Source: Alphaproteobacteria bacterium
GTDB lineage: Bacteria; Pseudomonadota; Alphaproteobacteria; Rhodobacterales; Rhodobacteraceae
Assembly: GCA_016869835.1 (NCBI GenBank)
Contig: VGDH01000015.1
Location: forward strand, 1 to 36,205
Length of the DNA: 36,205 nucleotides
Direction: 5' to 3'
Shown here: positions 27,154 through 36,205 of the stretch, one piece after another
Position numbering within the stretch: position 1 is the stretch's first letter
Layout of the letters: each line of letters starts with the position of its first letter
Position numbers and translations under genes: made by a program
The notes under the pieces: generated by a model
Told to the model about the DNA's origin: nothing
Seen by the model: the letters and a program-made list of their open reading frames with translations, nothing else
Databases searched by the model: none

Positions 27154-27243
27154 GCGCGCCCCCTTCGGTTTTCCCGCCAGATCCCTCTGGTTATCAGGGG
27201 GCTCAATACCCAGATATGTCGCCAAAGAACAGAGGGGCGCGCG

Positions 27244-28173
27244 ATGGAGCGGCGGATGATCTTTGCGGCCCTGGCCGCAGCGGGTGTTGCCGGTCTGGGG
27301 GCGGCGGCCTGGGCGTGGTTTGGCCGGGCCAAGACCCTGTCGGATGCCGAATGGAATGCCGCGTTTGCCAAAGCCCTGCCGCCGCCTGCCGGGCCGATGC
27401 AGACCTATCATCTGGGCCACAGCCTTGTGGGCCGTGACATGCCCGAGATGCTGGCGCAACTCGCAGGCCATAGCTACCACAGCCTGCTGGGCTGGGGCGC
27501 AACGCTTGGCGATCACTGGAAGGGCGCGGTCAACGGCTTTGCCGAGGAAAACGCCCATCCCGCCCACCGCCCGGTGCGCGAGGCTCTGGCCAGCGGCGAT
27601 TACGCGGCGCTGGTCCTGACCGAGATGGTCGAATTGCAAGACGCCATCCGCTATCACGACAGCGCCGCGCGGCTCGCCGATTGGGCGGCCTTGGCCCGTC
27701 AGGCGCGGCCCGATGTGCGGCTTTATCTTTACGAAACCTGGCACCGTCTGGGCGATCCTGCCGGCTGGCTAGAGCGGATCGACGCCGATCTGTCTGCGCT
27801 GTGGGAAGGGCAGGTGCTGCGCTCTGCAATGGCCCGGCTGGGTCTTGCATCCGGGGCGATCCATGTCATTCCCGGCGGGGAGGTGATGGCCGCTGCCGTC
27901 CGCGCGGTCGAGGCAGGCCAGGTGCCCGGCCTGACCCGGCGCGAGGATTTCTTCACCGATGACATCCACCTGAACGACATCGGCGCCTGGCTCATCGCCA
28001 TGACCCACTACGCCACGCTTTATCACCGCAACCCGCTGGGCCTGCCCGCCCAACTGGCCCGCGCGGATGGCACGCCGGCCACGCCCCCGCCGCCCGATGC
28101 GGCCCCCTTGTTGGAAGAGGTGGTCTGGAGGGTGGTGACCGGCTATCCTGCGACCGGAGTGGCGAAAGGGTAG
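27244..28173 (+). CDS. Membrane-anchored SGNH-hydrolase-like protein
   Basis: This 309-residue protein has an N-terminal helix (about 6-26) that could be a signal anchor, placing the rest in the periplasm. The soluble part has the SGNH pattern: GHS with Ser60 in HLGHSLVGRDMP, a Gly-containing block near AGHSYHSLLGWG, and DDIHLND giving the Asp239-x-x-His242 pair. SGNH enzymes are esterases or acyltransferases, often of polysaccharides. GAGGGG precedes ATG 27244. The next gene starts four bases after this stop and its first domain is a relative, so these are tandem paralogs. The role is inferred from its glycosyltransferase and glycosidase-like neighbours. It is intact. Confidence 0.72.
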   Translation: MERRMIFAALAAAGVAGLGAAAWAWFGRAKTLSDAEWNAAFAKALPPPAGPMQTYHLGHSLVGRDMPEMLAQLAGHSYHSLLGWGATLGDHWKGAVNGFAEENAHPAHRPVREALASGDYAALVLTEMVELQDAIRYHDSAARLADWAALARQARPDVRLYLYETWHRLGDPAGWLERIDADLSALWEGQVLRSAMARLGLASGAIHVIPGGEVMAAAVRAVEAGQVPGLTRREDFFTDDIHLNDIGAWLIAMTHYATLYHRNPLGLPAQLARADGTPATPPPPDAAPLLEEVVWRVVTGYPATGVAKG

Positions 28174-28176
28174 CCC

Positions 28177-30606
28177 ATGTCGGTGTTTTCGGTCCTGGCG
28201 GATGTGCTGATGGTCGGTCACAGCCTGTTTGGCGGTGAGTTGCCGGTGCTGACCGAAGAGGCGCTGCGCCAAGGCTCTGGCCCGGCTGCGGTCGAGGCGC
28301 AGATCATCAATGGCGCGCCCTTGGCCTTCAACTGGGAAAACTCGGCCAATGCCGAGGGCGTCGATGCCCGCGCCCGTCTGGCAGAGCGCCCGGCCAATGT
28401 GCTGATCCTGACCGAGGCGATCCCGATTGCCGAGCATGTGAAATGGTCCGACACCGCAGGCAATGTCGCCCGCTTTGCCGATCTCGCGCGCGAGGCCAAT
28501 CCCGAGGTGCGGGTCTTTCTCTTCGAAGGCTGGCCCGCCCGGTCGGGTGAGGGCCTGCCCTAGCGCGAGCAACTGGCGCAAGACCTGCCCCTGTGGCAGG
28601 GCGCGGCGGGTGAGGGGGTAGAGATCATTCCCGCCGGGCAGGCGCTGGCTTTGCTTGAGGACGAAATCGCCGCCGGGGCTGTGCCGGGCATCGACAGTCT
28701 GGATGCGATGTTTTCCGACGAGATCCATCTGGGCGGCAAGGGCCAGTATTTCGTGGCCATGGTGATTGCCGGGGCCGTGGCGGGCAAATCGCCCGAGGGC
28801 CTTCCGGCCAAGCTGATGCGCAGCTGGGCCAACCGCGATGCCCGGCTGACCTAAGAGCAGGCCCGCGCGCTGCAACGGGTGGCCTGGGCGGCGGTGTCGG
28901 CCGGCCTGCCCGCCGCGCCTGACGCGGCCTTGGCCCCCCAAGCGGACCCCGAACCTGCCCCCGAACCTGCCTATGCCCCCTTGCCCGATCCGGCCCCTGC
29001 CGAAACGGTGGCAGCCGTGCCGCCGATGCCCGCCTTTGCCCCCGTCACCAACACCAACCTTGCCTTTGGCTTGGCCGGGGTCAACGACTGGTCGGTGCAG
29101 CAGCCCTTTCTGGACGTGATGAAAACCGCCCGGCCCTGGGTCGGCCATCTTCCCGGCCAATGGGGGGGCTGGGACCATGACGATCTGGCGGCCAAGGGGG
29201 TCTTGGACGAAAACGGCTGGCCCCGATCCCTCCCGGCCGAGCTTTCGGCCATTGCCACGCTGATCCTCACTGACCTGCCCGAAGATGCCGCAGGCGTCGC
29301 CGGACGCTATCAGCTGACATGGGACGGGCAAGGCAAGTTGGCGCTGGAAGGCCGGGCCGAGGTGGTTCAGGCCACGCCGGGGCGCATTGTGTTTGACTAT
29401 ACCCCCGGTCCCGGCGCGGTGATCGTGACGCTCAGCGCGATTGATCCTGCCGACCCGATCCGCAACCTCGTGGTGGTGCGCGAAGACCGGGCCGAGGCGC
29501 TGGCGGCGGGCCAGATCTTCAACCCCGACTGGCTGGCGCGCATCCGGGGGGCCAGTGGTCTGCGCTTCATGGACTGGATGGCGACCAATGACAGCACGCT
29601 GTCGCGCGCCGCCGACCGGCCAAAGCCTGCCGATTACACCTGGGCGCGGGCCCGTGTGCCGATGGAAACCCTGATCGCGCTGGCCAACGAGCTGCAGGCC
29701 GACCCGTGGTTCACCCTGCCGCACCTGCCCGAAGATGCCCTTGTGCGCGACTGGGCAGAGATGGTGGAACGCGACCTCAACCCCGGCCTTGTCGCCCATG
29801 TGGAGTTTTCCAACGAGGTGTGGAACTGGCAATTCGCCCAGGCCCATTGGGCCGAGGCTGAGGGAAAGGCGCTGTGGAACCAGGACAACACCTGGGTGCA
29901 ATTCTATGCCCGCCGCGCCGCTGAGGTGGCGGATATCTGGGCCGATGTGTTTCAGGATGACCCATCGCGGCTGGTGCGGGTGATCGCGATGCAGACCGGC
30001 TGGCTGGGGCTGGAAGAGCAGATCTTGGATGCGCCTTTGGTCGTCGCCGAAGGGCGCAAACCCCCGGTCGAAAGCTTTGATGCATACGCGGTGACCGGCT
30101 ATTTCTCGGCCCTTCTGGGCTCGGACGACAAGGCGCTGACGGTCAAGGGCTGGCTGGTGCAATCGCGCGATGCCAATCCCGAAAACCCCTTCGCGCTGGC
30201 CAATGCCATGGCCGCCGACGAATTGCGCGACGGCAGGATCACCGGCACGACCGAGGACACCCTGACCACGCTTCTGGGGCAAACCCTGCCCTATCACGCC
30301 AGCATCGCCGCTGATCGGGGGCTCGCCTTGGTGATGTATGAGGGCGGCACGCATGTGGTGGGGTTTGGTGCGCAGATGGAGGATGCCGAACTGACGGCGT
30401 TTTTCACCCAGCTCAACTAGACCGCCGAAATGGGCGCGCTTTATGGCGAGTTACTGGCAGGCTGGCAGCTGATCTCGGATCAGCCGGTCAACACCTTTGT
30501 CGATGTCTACAGCCCCGGCAAATGGGGGTCTTGGGGGGCCTTGCGGCATCTGGGCGATGACAGCCCGCGCTGGCAGGCTTTGGCCAGGGGGTGCCACGGG
30601 TGCTAA
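28177..30606 (+). pseudogene. SGNH-like plus clan GH-A-like glycoside hydrolase fusion, interrupted by three in-frame stops
   Basis: One frame encodes about 810 codons with stops at 28561 (TAG), 28852 (TAA) and 30418 (TAG) and no frameshift. Domain 1 (28177 to about 28900) is SGNH-like: VGHSLFGGELP near the start and SDEIHLGGKGQYF giving Asp-x-x-His. A Pro/Ala-rich linker (about 28918-29050) leads to domain 2, whose VEFSNEVWNWQF and VMYEGGTHVVGFG resemble the acid/base and nucleophile strands of clan GH-A glycosidases. Protein-like sequence runs through every stop: WPARSGEGLP to REQLAQDLPLW, ANRDARLT to EQARALQRVAW, FFTQLN to TAEMGALYGEL. GAAAGGG precedes ATG 28177. No signal peptide is seen. 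The last codons overlap the glycosyltransferase gene. Confidence 0.8.
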
Positions 30607-31420
30607 GCGTCATCCTGCCCGCCTCGAATGAAGAGGCCTATATCGGCCCCTGCCTGACGGCGCTTTTTGCCAGCCACCCGGTGCCCGGCGGGGCCGAGGT
30701 GGTAGTTGTGGCCAATGGCTGCCGCGACGCCACGGCAACCCGCGCCCGCGCCATGGCCGGGGCGGCAAAAGCGGCAGGCTGGGGGTTTCAGGTGCTGGAA
30801 CGGGCCGAGGGCGGCAAACCCGGTGCGCTGAATGCGGGCGATGGGGCCGCGAATGGCACGATGCGGGCCTATCTTGATGCCGATGTGATCGTCAGCCCCC
30901 CGGTCATGGCCCAACTGGCCACCGCGCTGGAACTTGACCGGCCCCGCTATGCCGGGGCCACCCCCCGCATCCCGCCCGCCGATAGCGCTCTCACCCGCGC
31001 CTATGCCCGCTTCCGGCAACGCCTGCCCTTTGCCCAAAGCATCGCCCCCGGCTTTGGGCTTTTTGCGGTCAACGCCAAAGGCCGCACCCGCGGGCGCGAC
31101 TTTCCCGCGCTGATTTCGGACGACACCTTTGTGCGGCTGCAATTTGCGCCCGAGGAACGGGTGCAGGTGTCGGGCCTTTACGATTGGCCGATGGTCGAAG
31201 GGTTTGCCGCCCTGACCCGCGTCCGCCGCCGCCAGGATGCCGGCGTGGCCGAAATCGCGCGGCTCTATCCCGGCCTGTTGGCGCGGGAGGGCAAAGCGCC
31301 CTCGACGCGGGCGGGCTGGCCCGTCTGGCGGCGCAAGACCCGGTGGGGTTTGCGGCCTATGCCGCCGTGTCGCTGGCGGTGAAGGCGGGGAAAACAACGG
31401 GCTGGACGCGGGGAAGGTAG
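30591..31420 (+). pseudogene. Family 2 glycosyltransferase with C-terminal single-base frameshift
   Basis: The main frame (263 codons to 31382) is a GT2 nucleotide-sugar transferase: VILPASNEEAYIGPCL at the start, VVVANGCRD, GGKPGALNAGD, the DAD metal motif in RAYLDADVIV, and SDDTFVRLQF. At about 31309-31311 (a GGG run) the frame should drop by one base: the -1 frame continues as GLARLAAQDPVGFAAYAAVS and ends at TAG 31418-31420, which reads as the natural tail, whereas the main frame ends in Trp/Arg-rich shadow sequence. The catalytic core is untouched, so the product might keep some activity. GTG 30600, nine bases after GTG 30591, has the better ribosome site (AGGGGG). It overlaps the SGNH-glycosidase gene. 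Confidence 0.72.
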
Positions 31421-31561
31421 CAGGGGCGGTAGCGGAGGAGATAGGGGCGGTCACGCCATGGTCGGTTGCCGCCCCGGCCACAGACCCCGCACCATCCCAT
31501 CGTCCCCCGGCAGCACAGAAACCCGCTTGATCTTTCCCCGTGGCCCGGAAACTCTGCCGCC

Positions 31562-32173
31562 ATGTTACAGCTTGTCCCCCCCGATACCCTTCTGACCTTT
31601 GCCATGGCGGGCATCCTTCTGAACCTGACACCAGGGGCGGATGTGATGTTCGCCACCGCCTCCGGCATGGCAGGTGGGCCGCGGGCCGGGATGGCGGCCG
31701 GGGCCGGCGTGGGGCTTGGCGGGCTTTGGCATGTCGGTCTGGCCGCGCTTGGTGTGGCCGCCCTTCTCGCCGCCAATCCCGCTGCGATGACCGGCCTGCG
31801 CTGGTTCGGGGCGGGGTATCTTCTCTATCTGGCCCATGCGGCCTGGACCGGCGGACCGGCCGCACCGGGCCATGGGATTGCCCGCCTGTCGCGCGCATTC
31901 TGGCGGGGCTTCCTCACCAATGCCCTCAACCCCAAGGTCGCGCTGTTCGTCCTTGCCTTCCTGCCGCAGTTCACCGATCCCGCCCGCGGCCCGGTCTGGC
32001 AGCAGATCCTCATCCTTGGTGCGCTCTTTACGGCGACCGGGATGGTGATTACTGCAGGCTATGGGGCCTTGGCGGGGCTGGCCGGGCAAGCGCTCTCGGC
32101 CCGCATGGGCGTGATGAACAAACTCGCGGCCGGGGTCTTTGCCCTCTTGGCGCTGCGCATGATGCAGGAGTGA
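31562..32173 (+). CDS. LysE/RhtB family amino-acid exporter
   Basis: This 203-residue inner-membrane protein has about six hydrophobic segments and the LysE-family opening ILLNLTPGADVMFATASG (about residues 18-36), with GFLTNALNPKVALFVLAFLPQF (about 122-143) as the second conserved block. Members export amino acids or their derivatives, including homoserine, threonine and lysine; the substrate cannot be read from sequence. A 141-base spacer precedes it with nothing recognised. The start ATG 31562 has only GGAAAC upstream. The stop touches the ATG of the homocysteine methyltransferase relic, so the two were an operon. Confidence 0.9.
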   Translation: MLQLVPPDTLLTFAMAGILLNLTPGADVMFATASGMAGGPRAGMAAGAGVGLGGLWHVGLAALGVAALLAANPAAMTGLRWFGAGYLLYLAHAAWTGGPAAPGHGIARLSRAFWRGFLTNALNPKVALFVLAFLPQFTDPARGPVWQQILILGALFTATGMVITAGYGALAGLAGQALSARMGVMNKLAAGVFALLALRMMQE

Positions 32174-33072
32174 ATGATGGCTGTGATTACCCTTCTCGAT
32201 GGCGGCATGGGGCAAGAATTGGTGGCGCGCTCGGGCGATGAACCAACGCCGCTCTGGGCCACCCGCGTATGATCGACCATCCGGGGCTGGTGAAGGCCAT
32301 CCACGATGATTACTTTGCGGCGGGGGCGTCCGTGGCCACCACGAACACCTATAACATCCTGCATGACCGGCTGGTGGGCGTTGGTCTGGACCACTATTGC
32401 CACGCGCTGCACCTGCGGGCGCTGATGGAGGCGCATGAGGCGCGGGCCGAGGCGGGGCGTGGCCTCATTGCAGGCTCCATGGGGCCTTTGGGCGAAAGCT
32501 ATCGGCCTGACCTGACGCCAGCCGTTGAGGTCTCCACCGCGCTTTATGCCGAAAAGGCTGCCCTCATGGCGCCCCATGTCGATGTGATCCTGTGCGAAAC
32601 CATGTCCTCGCTGGACCTTTGCCTCGGTGCGCTGGCGGGCGCGCAGGCGGCGGGCAAGCCGGTGTGGCTTTCGGTCTCGGTACATGACCGCGACGGCACC
32701 AAGCTGCGGTCGGGCGAGCCGCTGGCCGGTCTGGCCGATGTGATCGCCGGCCATCCCACCGCCGCCGTTCTGGCCAATTGCTCCATGCCCGAGGCGATGG
32801 AGGCCGCAATGGCCGTCTTGCGCGGCATGGGGCGGCCCTTTGGCGCCTATGCCAACGGGTTTTCGGAAATCTCCAGCCTGCCGCTGCCCGACACCCATGA
32901 CGCGCCCGATTATTGCGCCCGCCATGACCTGACGCCCGAGAAATACACCGCCTTCGCCCTGCGCTGGGTCGAGATGGGGGCCACCATCGTCGGCGGCTGT
33001 TGCGAGGTCGGCCCGGCCCATATCGCCCATCTGGCCAAGGCGCTGAAGGCCGCAGGCCACCAGATCGCATGA
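32174..33072 (+). pseudogene. Homocysteine S-methyltransferase family gene, frameshifted near the N-terminus
   Basis: From ATG 32174 the frame reads MMAVITLLDGGMGQELVARS and PLWATRV, then meets TGA at 32270. The downstream frame, one base earlier, opens at ATG 32269 with MIDHPGLVKAIHDDYFAAGAS and continues unbroken to 33072. The joined product is a zinc-dependent homocysteine (betaine-type) methyltransferase: DGGMGQEL at the start, TTNTYNI, and the zinc cysteines in LANCSMP and VGGCCEVGP. A single base lost in CGCGTATG explains the break. Restart at 32269 would lack the first strand with the homocysteine-binding DGG. The stop overlaps the rluA start as ATGA. Confidence 0.82.
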
Positions 33073-33722
33073 TCCCGGACTTCGACTACAACCCGCCCGA
33101 TGTGCCCCTGGACATCCTCTTTCAGGATGATCTGATCCTTGTGGCGAACAAACCGGCAGGGCTGTTGTCGGTGCCGGGCAAACTGGAAGGTCGGTCGGAT
33201 TGTCTGGTCTCGCGCCTTCAGGCCGCCCAGTGGAACACCCTTCTGGTGCATCGGCTGGATTGCGACACTTCGGGCGTGATGATCTTTGCCAAGACCAAGA
33301 AGGCCCAAGGGTTTCTGGGGCAGGAATTCGAACAGCGCCGGGCGCAGAAATCTTACGTCGCGCGGGTGGCGGGAGAGGTCGCGGGCGAAAGCGGCCATAT
33401 CGACCTGCCCTTGGCCGCCGATTGGCCGAACCGCCCGCGCCAGATGGTCAGCCATGAACACGGACGGCCCGCACAGACCGATTGGCAGGTGATTGGCCGC
33501 GCCCCCGGCGAAACCCGCGTCAGGATGTGGCCAAAGACCGGCCGCAGCCACCAGCTGCGCGTCCATATGCTGGCCCTTGGCCACCCGATCCTGGGCGACC
33601 CGATCTATGCCACCGGCACGGCGCGCGCCCATCCCCGGCTGATGCTGCACGCCGAAACCCTGGCGCTGCGTCACCCCGGCACCGGCGACATGGTGGAATT
33701 TTCCGCCCCCTGCCCGTTCTGA
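33069..33722 (+). CDS. rluA: RluA-family pseudouridine synthase
   Basis: The 217-residue enzyme has the RluA layout: ILFQDDLILVANKPAGLLSVPG at about 16-37, the catalytic loop HRLDCDTSG with Asp64, then QKSYVARVAG, TGRSHQLRVHM and HPILGDPIYA. RluA isomerises uridines in 23S rRNA and some tRNAs. The absence of an S4 domain and the short length favour RluA over RluC or RluD. It is intact although it overlaps the end of the broken methyltransferase gene, on whose translation it may have depended. Confidence 0.93.
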   Translation: MIPDFDYNPPDVPLDILFQDDLILVANKPAGLLSVPGKLEGRSDCLVSRLQAAQWNTLLVHRLDCDTSGVMIFAKTKKAQGFLGQEFEQRRAQKSYVARVAGEVAGESGHIDLPLAADWPNRPRQMVSHEHGRPAQTDWQVIGRAPGETRVRMWPKTGRSHQLRVHMLALGHPILGDPIYATGTARAHPRLMLHAETLALRHPGTGDMVEFSAPCPF

Positions 33723-33785
33723 CTATCTCGCGCATTAACCTTGCTGCAATCTCCGTGCTGTCTGATGCCGGTGAAAGGAGCGCCC

Positions 33786-35389
33786 ATGCGCCTGCTACTG
33801 CAATTCCGCTTTCTTCCGCTGACCCTGTCCGCGCTGCTGGCCCTGGCCTCGCTGGGGGCGGCGATTGTCTGGCCCGCCTGGGCCTTCTTCTTCACCTGCG
33901 CTTTCGTGGGCTTCGCCATGCTAACGGCCCTTGGCCTGCGCGACATCACGCAAACCCGCCACGCGGTTCTGCGAAACTACCCCATCGCGGCGCATCTGCG
34001 GTTCCTCCTCGAATCCATCCGGCCCGAAATGCGGCAATACTTCTTCGAAGGCGAAAAAGACGGCGCGCCCTTCCCGCGCGACAAACGCGCCATCGTCTAT
34101 CAGCGCGCAAAGAAGGAACTCGACAAGCGCCCCTTCGGCACGATGTTCGATGTCTACCAAGAGCAATACGAATGGCTGCACCATTCCCTTGCCCCCACCG
34201 CCCCCCTGCCCGTTGACCAGATGCGCGTGCAGGTCGGCCGCTATTCGGCCAGCCTTCTGAACATTTCCGCCATGAGTTACGGGGCGCTTTCGGCCAATGC
34301 GATCTGATCCTTGAACAAGGGCGCGCAGGCGGGCGGGTTCTTCCATGATACGGGCGAGGGTGGGGTGTCGCCCTATCACCGCGAACATGGCGGCGATCTG
34401 GTCTGGGAAATCGGCTCGGGCTATTTCGGCTGCCGCGCGGCGGATGGCGGGTTTGATCCGGGCAAGTTTGCCGAAAACGCCGCCGATCCGCAGATCAAGA
34501 TGATCGAGGTGAAGCTGAGCCAAGGGGCGAAACCGGGCCATGGTGGCGTGCTGCCGGCGGCCAAGGTGACAGAAGAAATCGCCGCCATTCGCGGCGTGCC
34601 CATGGGGTAGGATTGCGCCTCCCCCGCCCGCCATTCGGCTTTTTCCACGCCGATCGAATTGATGCAGTTCATCGCCCGCTTGCGGGAGTTGTCGGGCGGC
34701 AAGCCTACCGGCTTCAAGCTCTGCATCGGCCATGAATGGGAGTTCATGGCGCTCTGCAAGGCGATGGTGGAATCTGGCATCACCCCCGATTTCATCGTGA
34801 TCGACGGGAAAGAGGGCGGCACGGGGGCGGCACTCTTGGAATTCATGGACCATATCGGCATGCCCCTGCGCGACGGGCTGTCCTTTGCCCATAACGCGCT
34901 GATCAGCGCAGGCCTGCGCGACCGGGTGAAACTGGGGCCTCGGGCAAGATCACCTCGGCCTTTGACATGGCACGTGTCATGGCGCTGGGGGCCGATTGGT
35001 GCAACGCGGCGCGGGGGTTCATGTTTGCGGTGGGCTGTATTCAGGCGCAGTCCTGCCACACCGGGGAATGCCCCACAGGGGTGGCCACCCAAGACCCACT
35101 GCGCCAGCGCGCGCTGGTGGTCACGGACAAGGCCGAGCGGGTGAAGAATTTCCACCACAACACGCTGCACGCCCTGTCCGAACTGGTCGCCGCGGCGGGG
35201 CTCTCCCATCCGAACGAACTGCGGCCGCATCACTTTCAGCGCCGGGCGTCATCGGACAAGGTGATTTCCTTTGCCGAGCAATATGAACAGCTTGCCCCCG
35301 GCATCCTGTTGCAAAACCCCGCGGCAAGCCCCCGCTACGGCGCGGCGTCGTTTCTGGCGCAAAGCGCCAGCTTCGCGCGGGCGGGGTAA
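33786..35389 (+). pseudogene. FMN-binding glutamate synthase family gene with two in-frame stops and one frameshift
   Basis: The start is sound: AAAGGAG lies six bases before ATG 33786, followed by two N-terminal membrane helices and PFGTMFDVYQEQYEWLHHSL. The frame meets TGA 34305-34307 (ISAMSYGALSANAI to SLNKGAQAGGFFHDTGEGG) and TAG 34608-34610 (RGVPMG to DCASPARHSAFSTP). At the GGGG run 34934-34937 one base is missing, and the -1 frame continues SGKITSAFDMARVMALGADW to a normal end at 35389. Family landmarks are DTGEGGVSPYH, DGKEGGTGAA and GCIQAQSCHTGECPTGVATQD. The whole would be about 534 residues. Restored, it would be a GltB-like FMN/iron-sulfur oxidoreductase; as it stands it cannot make a complete enzyme. 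Confidence 0.88.
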
Positions 35390-35462: not shown

Positions 35463-36205
35463 TCAAAGCCCCAGCGCCACCTTGCGCCCCTCATGAAAGG
35501 CATAGGCCGCCAACCGGGGCGCCGCGCAATCGCCAATCCGGTGCGTGGTCTTGCCCGCAAACCCCTCAGGCCAAGGGTCGAAGCTGCGGTTGGTCGTGGC
35601 CATCACCAGACCGCTGGCGGGCAGCGTCTCTTCCTGCCCCGTCAGCATGTTCTTCACCGTCACCCCATTGCCATGCCACCGCGTCAGGCAATGTTCGGTC
35701 AGGAACCGCACCCCCAGTTGCGCCAACCGCCGCCGCGCCGCGCCATCGGCGGCGGTGCGGGCAATCTCCTTGCCGACAAAGGGCTCGGGCGTGACAATCA
35801 CCACCTGATGCCCACGTTCGGCCAAGGTCCAGGCCGTGCCCACCCCGCGCCAGTTTGACCCCTCGTCATACAAGACCACTGCATCGCCCAGCCGCGCCTC
35901 GCGCCGCATCGCCGCCTCGGGCGACCAGACCCCGCCCAGATCAATTCCGGGCAGGCCGGCCAAATGCGGCTGCCAGCGCTGGAACCCCGTCTCATCGGGC
36001 AAGGACCCCGTTGCCAAGATCACCACATCCGCCGGATGGGCAGCAATCTCGGCCTCCTCCAGAAAGGTGTTCAGCCGCAAGCTCACGCCCAGCTTGTCAA
36101 ACTGCCGCTCATACCACTCCATCAGATCCAGGATCTGCGCCCGACGCGGCTGCATCCCCGCCAACCGGAACTGCCCGCCGATCTGCGGCAGCGCCTCGAC
36201 AATTT
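35463..36205 (-). CDS. NADH:flavin oxidoreductase, C-terminal FAD/NAD-binding part (5' end outside window)
   Basis: The open frame enters from the right edge and ends at TGA 35463-35465, giving the last 246 or so residues. It reads GGQFRLAGMQPRRAQILDLM, then WYERQFDKLGVSLRLNT, DVVILATGS, VVLYDEGSNWRGVGTAWTLAERG (second nucleotide-binding fold) and an end IGDCAAPRLAAYAFHEGRKVAL. This matches the C-terminal half of two-domain old-yellow-enzyme-type proteins such as dienoyl-CoA reductase and trimethylamine or histamine dehydrogenase. The N-terminal FMN barrel and cysteine cluster lie outside the window. The visible part is intact, unlike the genes to its left. Confidence 0.88.
   Translation of the reverse strand, partial: IVEALPQIGGQFRLAGMQPRRAQILDLMEWYERQFDKLGVSLRLNTFLEEAEIAAHPADVVILATGSLPDETGFQRWQPHLAGLPGIDLGGVWSPEAAMRREARLGDAVVLYDEGSNWRGVGTAWTLAERGHQVVIVTPEPFVGKEIARTAADGAARRRLAQLGVRFLTEHCLTRWHGNGVTVKNMLTGQEETLPASGLVMATTNRSFDPWPEGFAGKTTHRIGDCAAPRLAAYAFHEGRKVALGL

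Follow-up and report, generated by a model that had tools for sequence, protein, structure and literature searches.

Eight lesions in four adjacent genes at a contig end of a draft genome near Tabrizicola oligotrophica: young pseudogenes or consensus error

Introduction

At the right end of the window, by which we mean the whole of contig C15 (36,205 bases), eight lesions break four neighbouring, unrelated genes: five in-frame stops and three single-base losses. The contig belongs to a draft assembly (G000) of 3,144,613 bases in 217 contigs that lies near Tabrizicola oligotrophica and whose fragmentation suggests a metagenome-assembled genome (MAG). Has the organism recently lost these genes, or are they broken only in the consensus? 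An initial annotation had proposed very recent loss of an accessory block or a local consensus error. We found that the breaks are young or artificial and that the patch is the densest one seen in an assembly with breaks throughout. Tentatively, at close to an even chance, we take the four genes to be real, very young pseudogenes. Whether pseudogenes or consensus error, the kind of phenomenon is already known.

Results and Discussion

The lesions and the four broken genes

We examined the lesions in three ways: by alignment against the relatives' DNA, by homology to the genes of G002, and with a coding-frame model that works independently of relatives. The same-genus genomes were G001, G002 and G003, where G002 was taken as T. 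oligotrophica KMS-5 and G001 as the MAG HJF.31, which is 88% complete.

The first damaged gene, referred to as gene 1 (28177..30606, + strand, about 810 codons), carries the stops TAG at 28561..28563, TAA at 28852..28854 and TAG at 30418..30420; searches with its three largest pieces gave no Pfam or NCBIfam match. A glycosyltransferase family 2 gene (30591..31420, +) has one frameshift, a single-base loss at about 31310 whose exact base is not fixed (31294..31312). The homocysteine S-methyltransferase family gene (32174..33072, +) has lost one base near its start, at about 32268 (32266..32269). In the glutamate-synthase-domain gene (33786..35389, +), a TGA at 34305..34307 and a TAG at 34608..34610 are followed by a single-base loss at about 34936 (34934..34938). 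Each of the five stops listed in the initial annotation was thus recovered at its position and in frame, and the three frame changes appear as single-base losses in the alignment, all in the same direction as it had reported. Its placing of two frameshifts in G runs holds only in part, as these runs are merely 3-4 bases long and 32268 lies outside any of them.

The coding-frame model flagged the five stops, two frameshifts and four ordinary gene junctions; the third frameshift, at 32268, which is close to the gene start, was missed. Left of 28173 the model gave 28 coding segments. Homology to the G002 genes covered 31,099 of the 36,205 bases and yielded five lesions, every one right of 28173, while the glutamate-synthase-like gene was left uncovered because G002 gave no match for it. 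The probability that all eight lesions fall within the right-hand 8.03 of 36.2 kb under even scatter is about 6e-6, a value calculated after the fact for a window that was picked for its lesions.

The aligned copies in relatives are open

For the damaged genes, the copies that we aligned in related genomes are open. In the case of gene 1 these are the copies of G002, G001 and G031 and that part of the gene which is present on the contig of G003. Gene 1 gave a match in 58 of 149 family genomes. In the best match of each, stops were seen in the window's own genome (three) and in G026 (one, in a partial match at 45%); another eight matches, weak and secondary, contain stops as well. Among the matches listed for the glutamate-synthase-like gene, stops occurred only in the row of the window's genome. 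The comparison with relatives that the initial annotation had called for hence bears out its wording "very recent", as does the small amount of excess missense change described below.

The missense load is small

The ratio of nonsynonymous to synonymous substitution rates (dN/dS), the second comparison that had been proposed, was 0.07 to 0.24 for the damaged genes in pairwise tests against the same-genus copies; the left-hand genes gave 0.15 to 0.17. For these values and for the rate sums given below, three left-hand genes (g8569, g9365, g7483) were excluded.

Low dN/dS could also point to readthrough or reassignment of the stops, with the genes still working, and readthrough in bacteria has been argued from in-frame stops under low dN/dS (PMC7918605). 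We consider this highly improbable here. TAG is indeed the commonest stop (three of five in the window and three of five outside), but no other stop arises as easily in these genes, and TAG is expected to make up 55-57% of random stops. Moreover, all three stop codons occur, and readthrough would not rescue the three frameshifts. The release factor 1 gene prfA is intact (479 bits), and no CTA anticodon was found in the 34 tRNAs read out of 39 matches, five tRNAs being unread. With three stop codons involved, an intact prfA and no such anticodon, reassignment of TAG is unlikely.

In a relative-rate count with outgroups, we compared how many amino-acid changes are private to the window's genome and how many to a sister. 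The counts were 54/40 (sister G002) or 51/46 (G001) for gene 1, 15/16 or 13/11 for the glycosyltransferase, 11/8, 9/5, 10/5, 5/7 or 5/5 for the methyltransferase, depending on sister and outgroup, and 12/13 for the glutamate-synthase-like gene; the left-hand genes gave 168/154 and 162/158 (outgroup G031). A faster amino-acid change along the whole contig, as indicated by a first comparison of codon positions, was not upheld by these outgroup tests. Summed over the damaged genes, the missense excess is roughly 3-20. By random single-base change, these genes would gain 20-27 missense changes for every stop, so that five stops predict about 100-130. Because the excess amino-acid change is so far below this prediction, the breaks are either young or artificial. 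The misfit between stops and missense changes speaks against neutral decay and against random wrong bases alike; a likelihood test gave p values of 0.0015 to 0.019 (run with the excess set to 6 and to 18 and its error assumed to be 14; post hoc).

Of 238 residues with a conservation of 98% or more among homologs, 5 are changed in the window, the summed mean of the other homologs being 2.8. This sum comprises gene 1 (in two parts), the glycosyltransferase and the glutamate-synthase-like gene, with 17 to 86 homologs, and three genes with only 3-5 homologs were left out of it.

Should the lesions be real, several genes at once have more null mutations than their missense load permits, and for this reason we considered that selection may have acted for inactivation itself, in a recent episode of gene silencing in the lineage instead of slow neutral decay, with further null hits in genes that were already off. 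We regard such an episode as quite unlikely.

Gene order does not mark off a block

The accessory block of the initial annotation would have lost its function recently and as a unit. In its favour, the lesions follow one another without a gap, and the patchy distribution of the glutamate-synthase-like gene in the genus, with a DNA match in G003 and none in the incomplete G001 or in G002, suggests that this gene may be accessory there. Against this stands the gene order across 28173, which is the same in G002, G001, G003 and G031. The window is collinear with contig C3 of G002 from 13.77 to 31.38 kb, in three runs of matches, and the order with respect to G002 changes at about 10.8, 13.7, 31.5 and 33.7-35.5 kb. 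In G002, the lysE-bmt-rluA genes are on the same contig as gene 1 and the glycosyltransferase, at a distance of about 215 kb. Two genes inside the patch are intact, the LysE-type translocator gene (31562..32173, +) and the RluA-family pseudouridine synthase gene (33069..33722, +), which are open, in agreement with how they had first been annotated, and evolve at ordinary rates. With similar breaks on other contigs as well, the claim that a block was lost did not stand, and we hold it to be very unlikely. The boundary drawn at 28173 is correct insofar as the lesions begin there, but it lies inside the stretch collinear with G002. An edge of a block or of a chimera at this position was rejected, as the order is kept in four relatives.

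We also considered a second intact copy in the assembly, as would result from a strain mixture. DNA searches gave no more than short, weak matches, the longest of 242 bases at 70%, to which a 40% relative at the protein level on C70 is to be added, and this explanation was rejected.

The open gene next to the patch on the left (27229-28173) shares 33% protein identity with the N-terminal part of gene 1 (28177-28970), and the two are likely to represent an old duplication. Antisense to gene 1 runs an open frame of 861 codons (27769-30354, - strand), which has no support from the coding model. At the far right, an open gene (35463..36203, -) is cut by the contig end.

Breaks elsewhere in the assembly

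Outside the window, aligning G002 genes to 159 kb of the same assembly gave nine lesion rows. Two of them, upstream of an apparent start, were dropped, and the seven that were kept lie in six genes on five contigs, which means that 6 of the 166 genes compared are broken (about 3.6%). Among the seven are two stops only 6 bases apart in a YjeF-type gene (C28), which are poorly aligned and doubtful and were omitted from the stricter test described below. The reverse check, over 187 kb of G002, gave two rows, both upstream of a start and dropped, so that none was kept. In smaller checks of other relatives, G001 (31.7 kb), G003 (13.5 kb) and G031 (14.2 kb) showed no lesion, and G025 (5.9 kb) showed one frameshift.

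The coding-frame model was run on 40 stretches of the assembly outside the window and on a 1.64 Mb sample of G002. It gave nine frameshift candidates in 645 kb compared with two in 1,639 kb of G002, and 19 in-frame stops without a nearby ATG compared with 16 (2.95 versus 0.98 per 100 kb); such candidates were checked by homology only where they overlap the lesion list. At named loci with a GC content of at least 60%, three frameshifts were counted in 661 kb from isolates, each of them at almost one and the same position in Leisingera loci, and five in 457 kb from MAGs or uncultured organisms, a division judged from titles for loci that all surround one gene. Stops without an ATG numbered two in the isolate loci and seven in the MAG or uncultured loci; six loci of lower GC content gave none. 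By frame arithmetic, six of the nine frameshift candidates outside the window are of the one-base-loss type, and at least two of the nine (L079, L068) look by eye like junctions of two different genes. Alignment, made for two frameshifts outside the window, showed each to be the loss of one base next to a run of seven G.

Single genes illustrate the outside-window breaks. An MR/MLE (enolase superfamily) enzyme gene in L077 (C130; 2281-3404, -), adjoining an open elongation-factor-like gene, is seemingly split by one stop and one frameshift. The same holds for an RND (AcrB-type) pump gene in L213 (C18; 10909-14044, +), in which two of the pieces correspond to consecutive portions of one family. 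One in-frame TAG each was seen in genes for a solute-binding protein, a glycosyltransferase and an FMN-binding protein, at 10312 in L220 (C65), 12231 in L072 (C80) and 5173 in L203 (C2), respectively.

Possible consensus error

Read depth or quality may fall towards the right contig end and leave about 7 kb with wrong or missing bases, the genes of the organism itself being intact. We regard this as a serious possibility, though short of an even chance. The patch occupies the last 8 kb of the contig and follows position and not function. All three window frameshifts are one-base losses, two outside stand beside long G runs, and the frameshift rate of the assembly, which is above that of G002, resembles the rate in the MAG loci given above more than that in the isolates. 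Furthermore, there is almost no missense drift, and three lesions in one gene without drift are unusual.

Other observations fit such errors poorly. Random wrong bases would have brought the missense changes that are not seen, and outside the window, lesions also occur away from the ends of contigs. A systematic shortening of G/C runs was not found, runs of 6, 7, 8 and 9 or more occurring no less often than in T. oligotrophica. Moreover, the broken genes tend to be weakly conserved, with 77.0% identity versus 85.8% in a length-weighted random draw (P 0.0016; 9 of 199 genes). Frameshifts lower the measured identity somewhat; a stricter form of the test, which removes this effect in part, gave 79.9 versus 85.9% (P 0.028; 8 genes). 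Outside the window alone, the broken genes also lean towards weak conservation (P 0.004; stricter form 0.030), and the tests rest on 5 to 9 broken genes. Since errors should be indifferent to conservation, this tentatively favours real decay. In our judgement, the families of the broken genes look accessory.

Nanopore MAGs are reported to contain additional pseudogenes that stem from frameshift errors (PMC8103633). The present case resembles these in its one-base losses, its draft assembly and its raised frameshift rate across the assembly. It differs in having five stops with hardly any missense change and in the leaning of the broken genes towards weak conservation, and the sequencing platform may be another one.

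Possible young pseudogenes

The reading that we tentatively favour is that of real, very young pseudogenes. Each of the four genes would have been intact until recently; null mutations, i.e. stops and one-base losses, would then not have been removed, the genes being dispensable. We infer that the lesions are present in the organism and that their clustering arose by chance or through a shared loss of need, so that the patch may be the densest spot of a light gene decay running through the genome. Disabling lesions stand in genes that are open in relatives, and their missense drift hardly exceeds that in intact genes, both of which are marks of young pseudogenes. In favour of real decay we count the open copies in relatives, the spread of breaks over the assembly, the low conservation of the broken genes, the undepleted G/C runs and the intact lysE-type and rluA genes.

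Several observations weigh against this reading. The cluster covers four unrelated genes and stops at the contig end. The null lesions are out of proportion to the missense load, and gene 1 and the glutamate-synthase-domain gene have three lesions each and yet show next to no missense drift. In its frameshift rate, the assembly is closer to other MAG loci than to isolates. In Salmonella, 346 of 378 pseudogenes had a single inactivating mutation, according to Kuo and Ochman 2010 (PMC2916853). The present genes are like the young bacterial pseudogenes described there in that premature stops and small deletions occur in otherwise well-preserved genes and are confined to one lineage, but unlike the Salmonella set in that two of the four have three lesions each and four adjacent unrelated genes are affected. 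The weights that we give to real decay and to consensus error are a matter of judgement.

Conclusions

When broken genes stand close together in a draft genome, they suggest a fresh evolutionary event, though here the same assembly is dotted with breaks, which calls for caution. Two tests need no reads: how many missense changes accompany each stop, and how well the broken genes are conserved. For this locus they do not point to a single answer. If the lesions are real, this genome would represent gene loss caught early.

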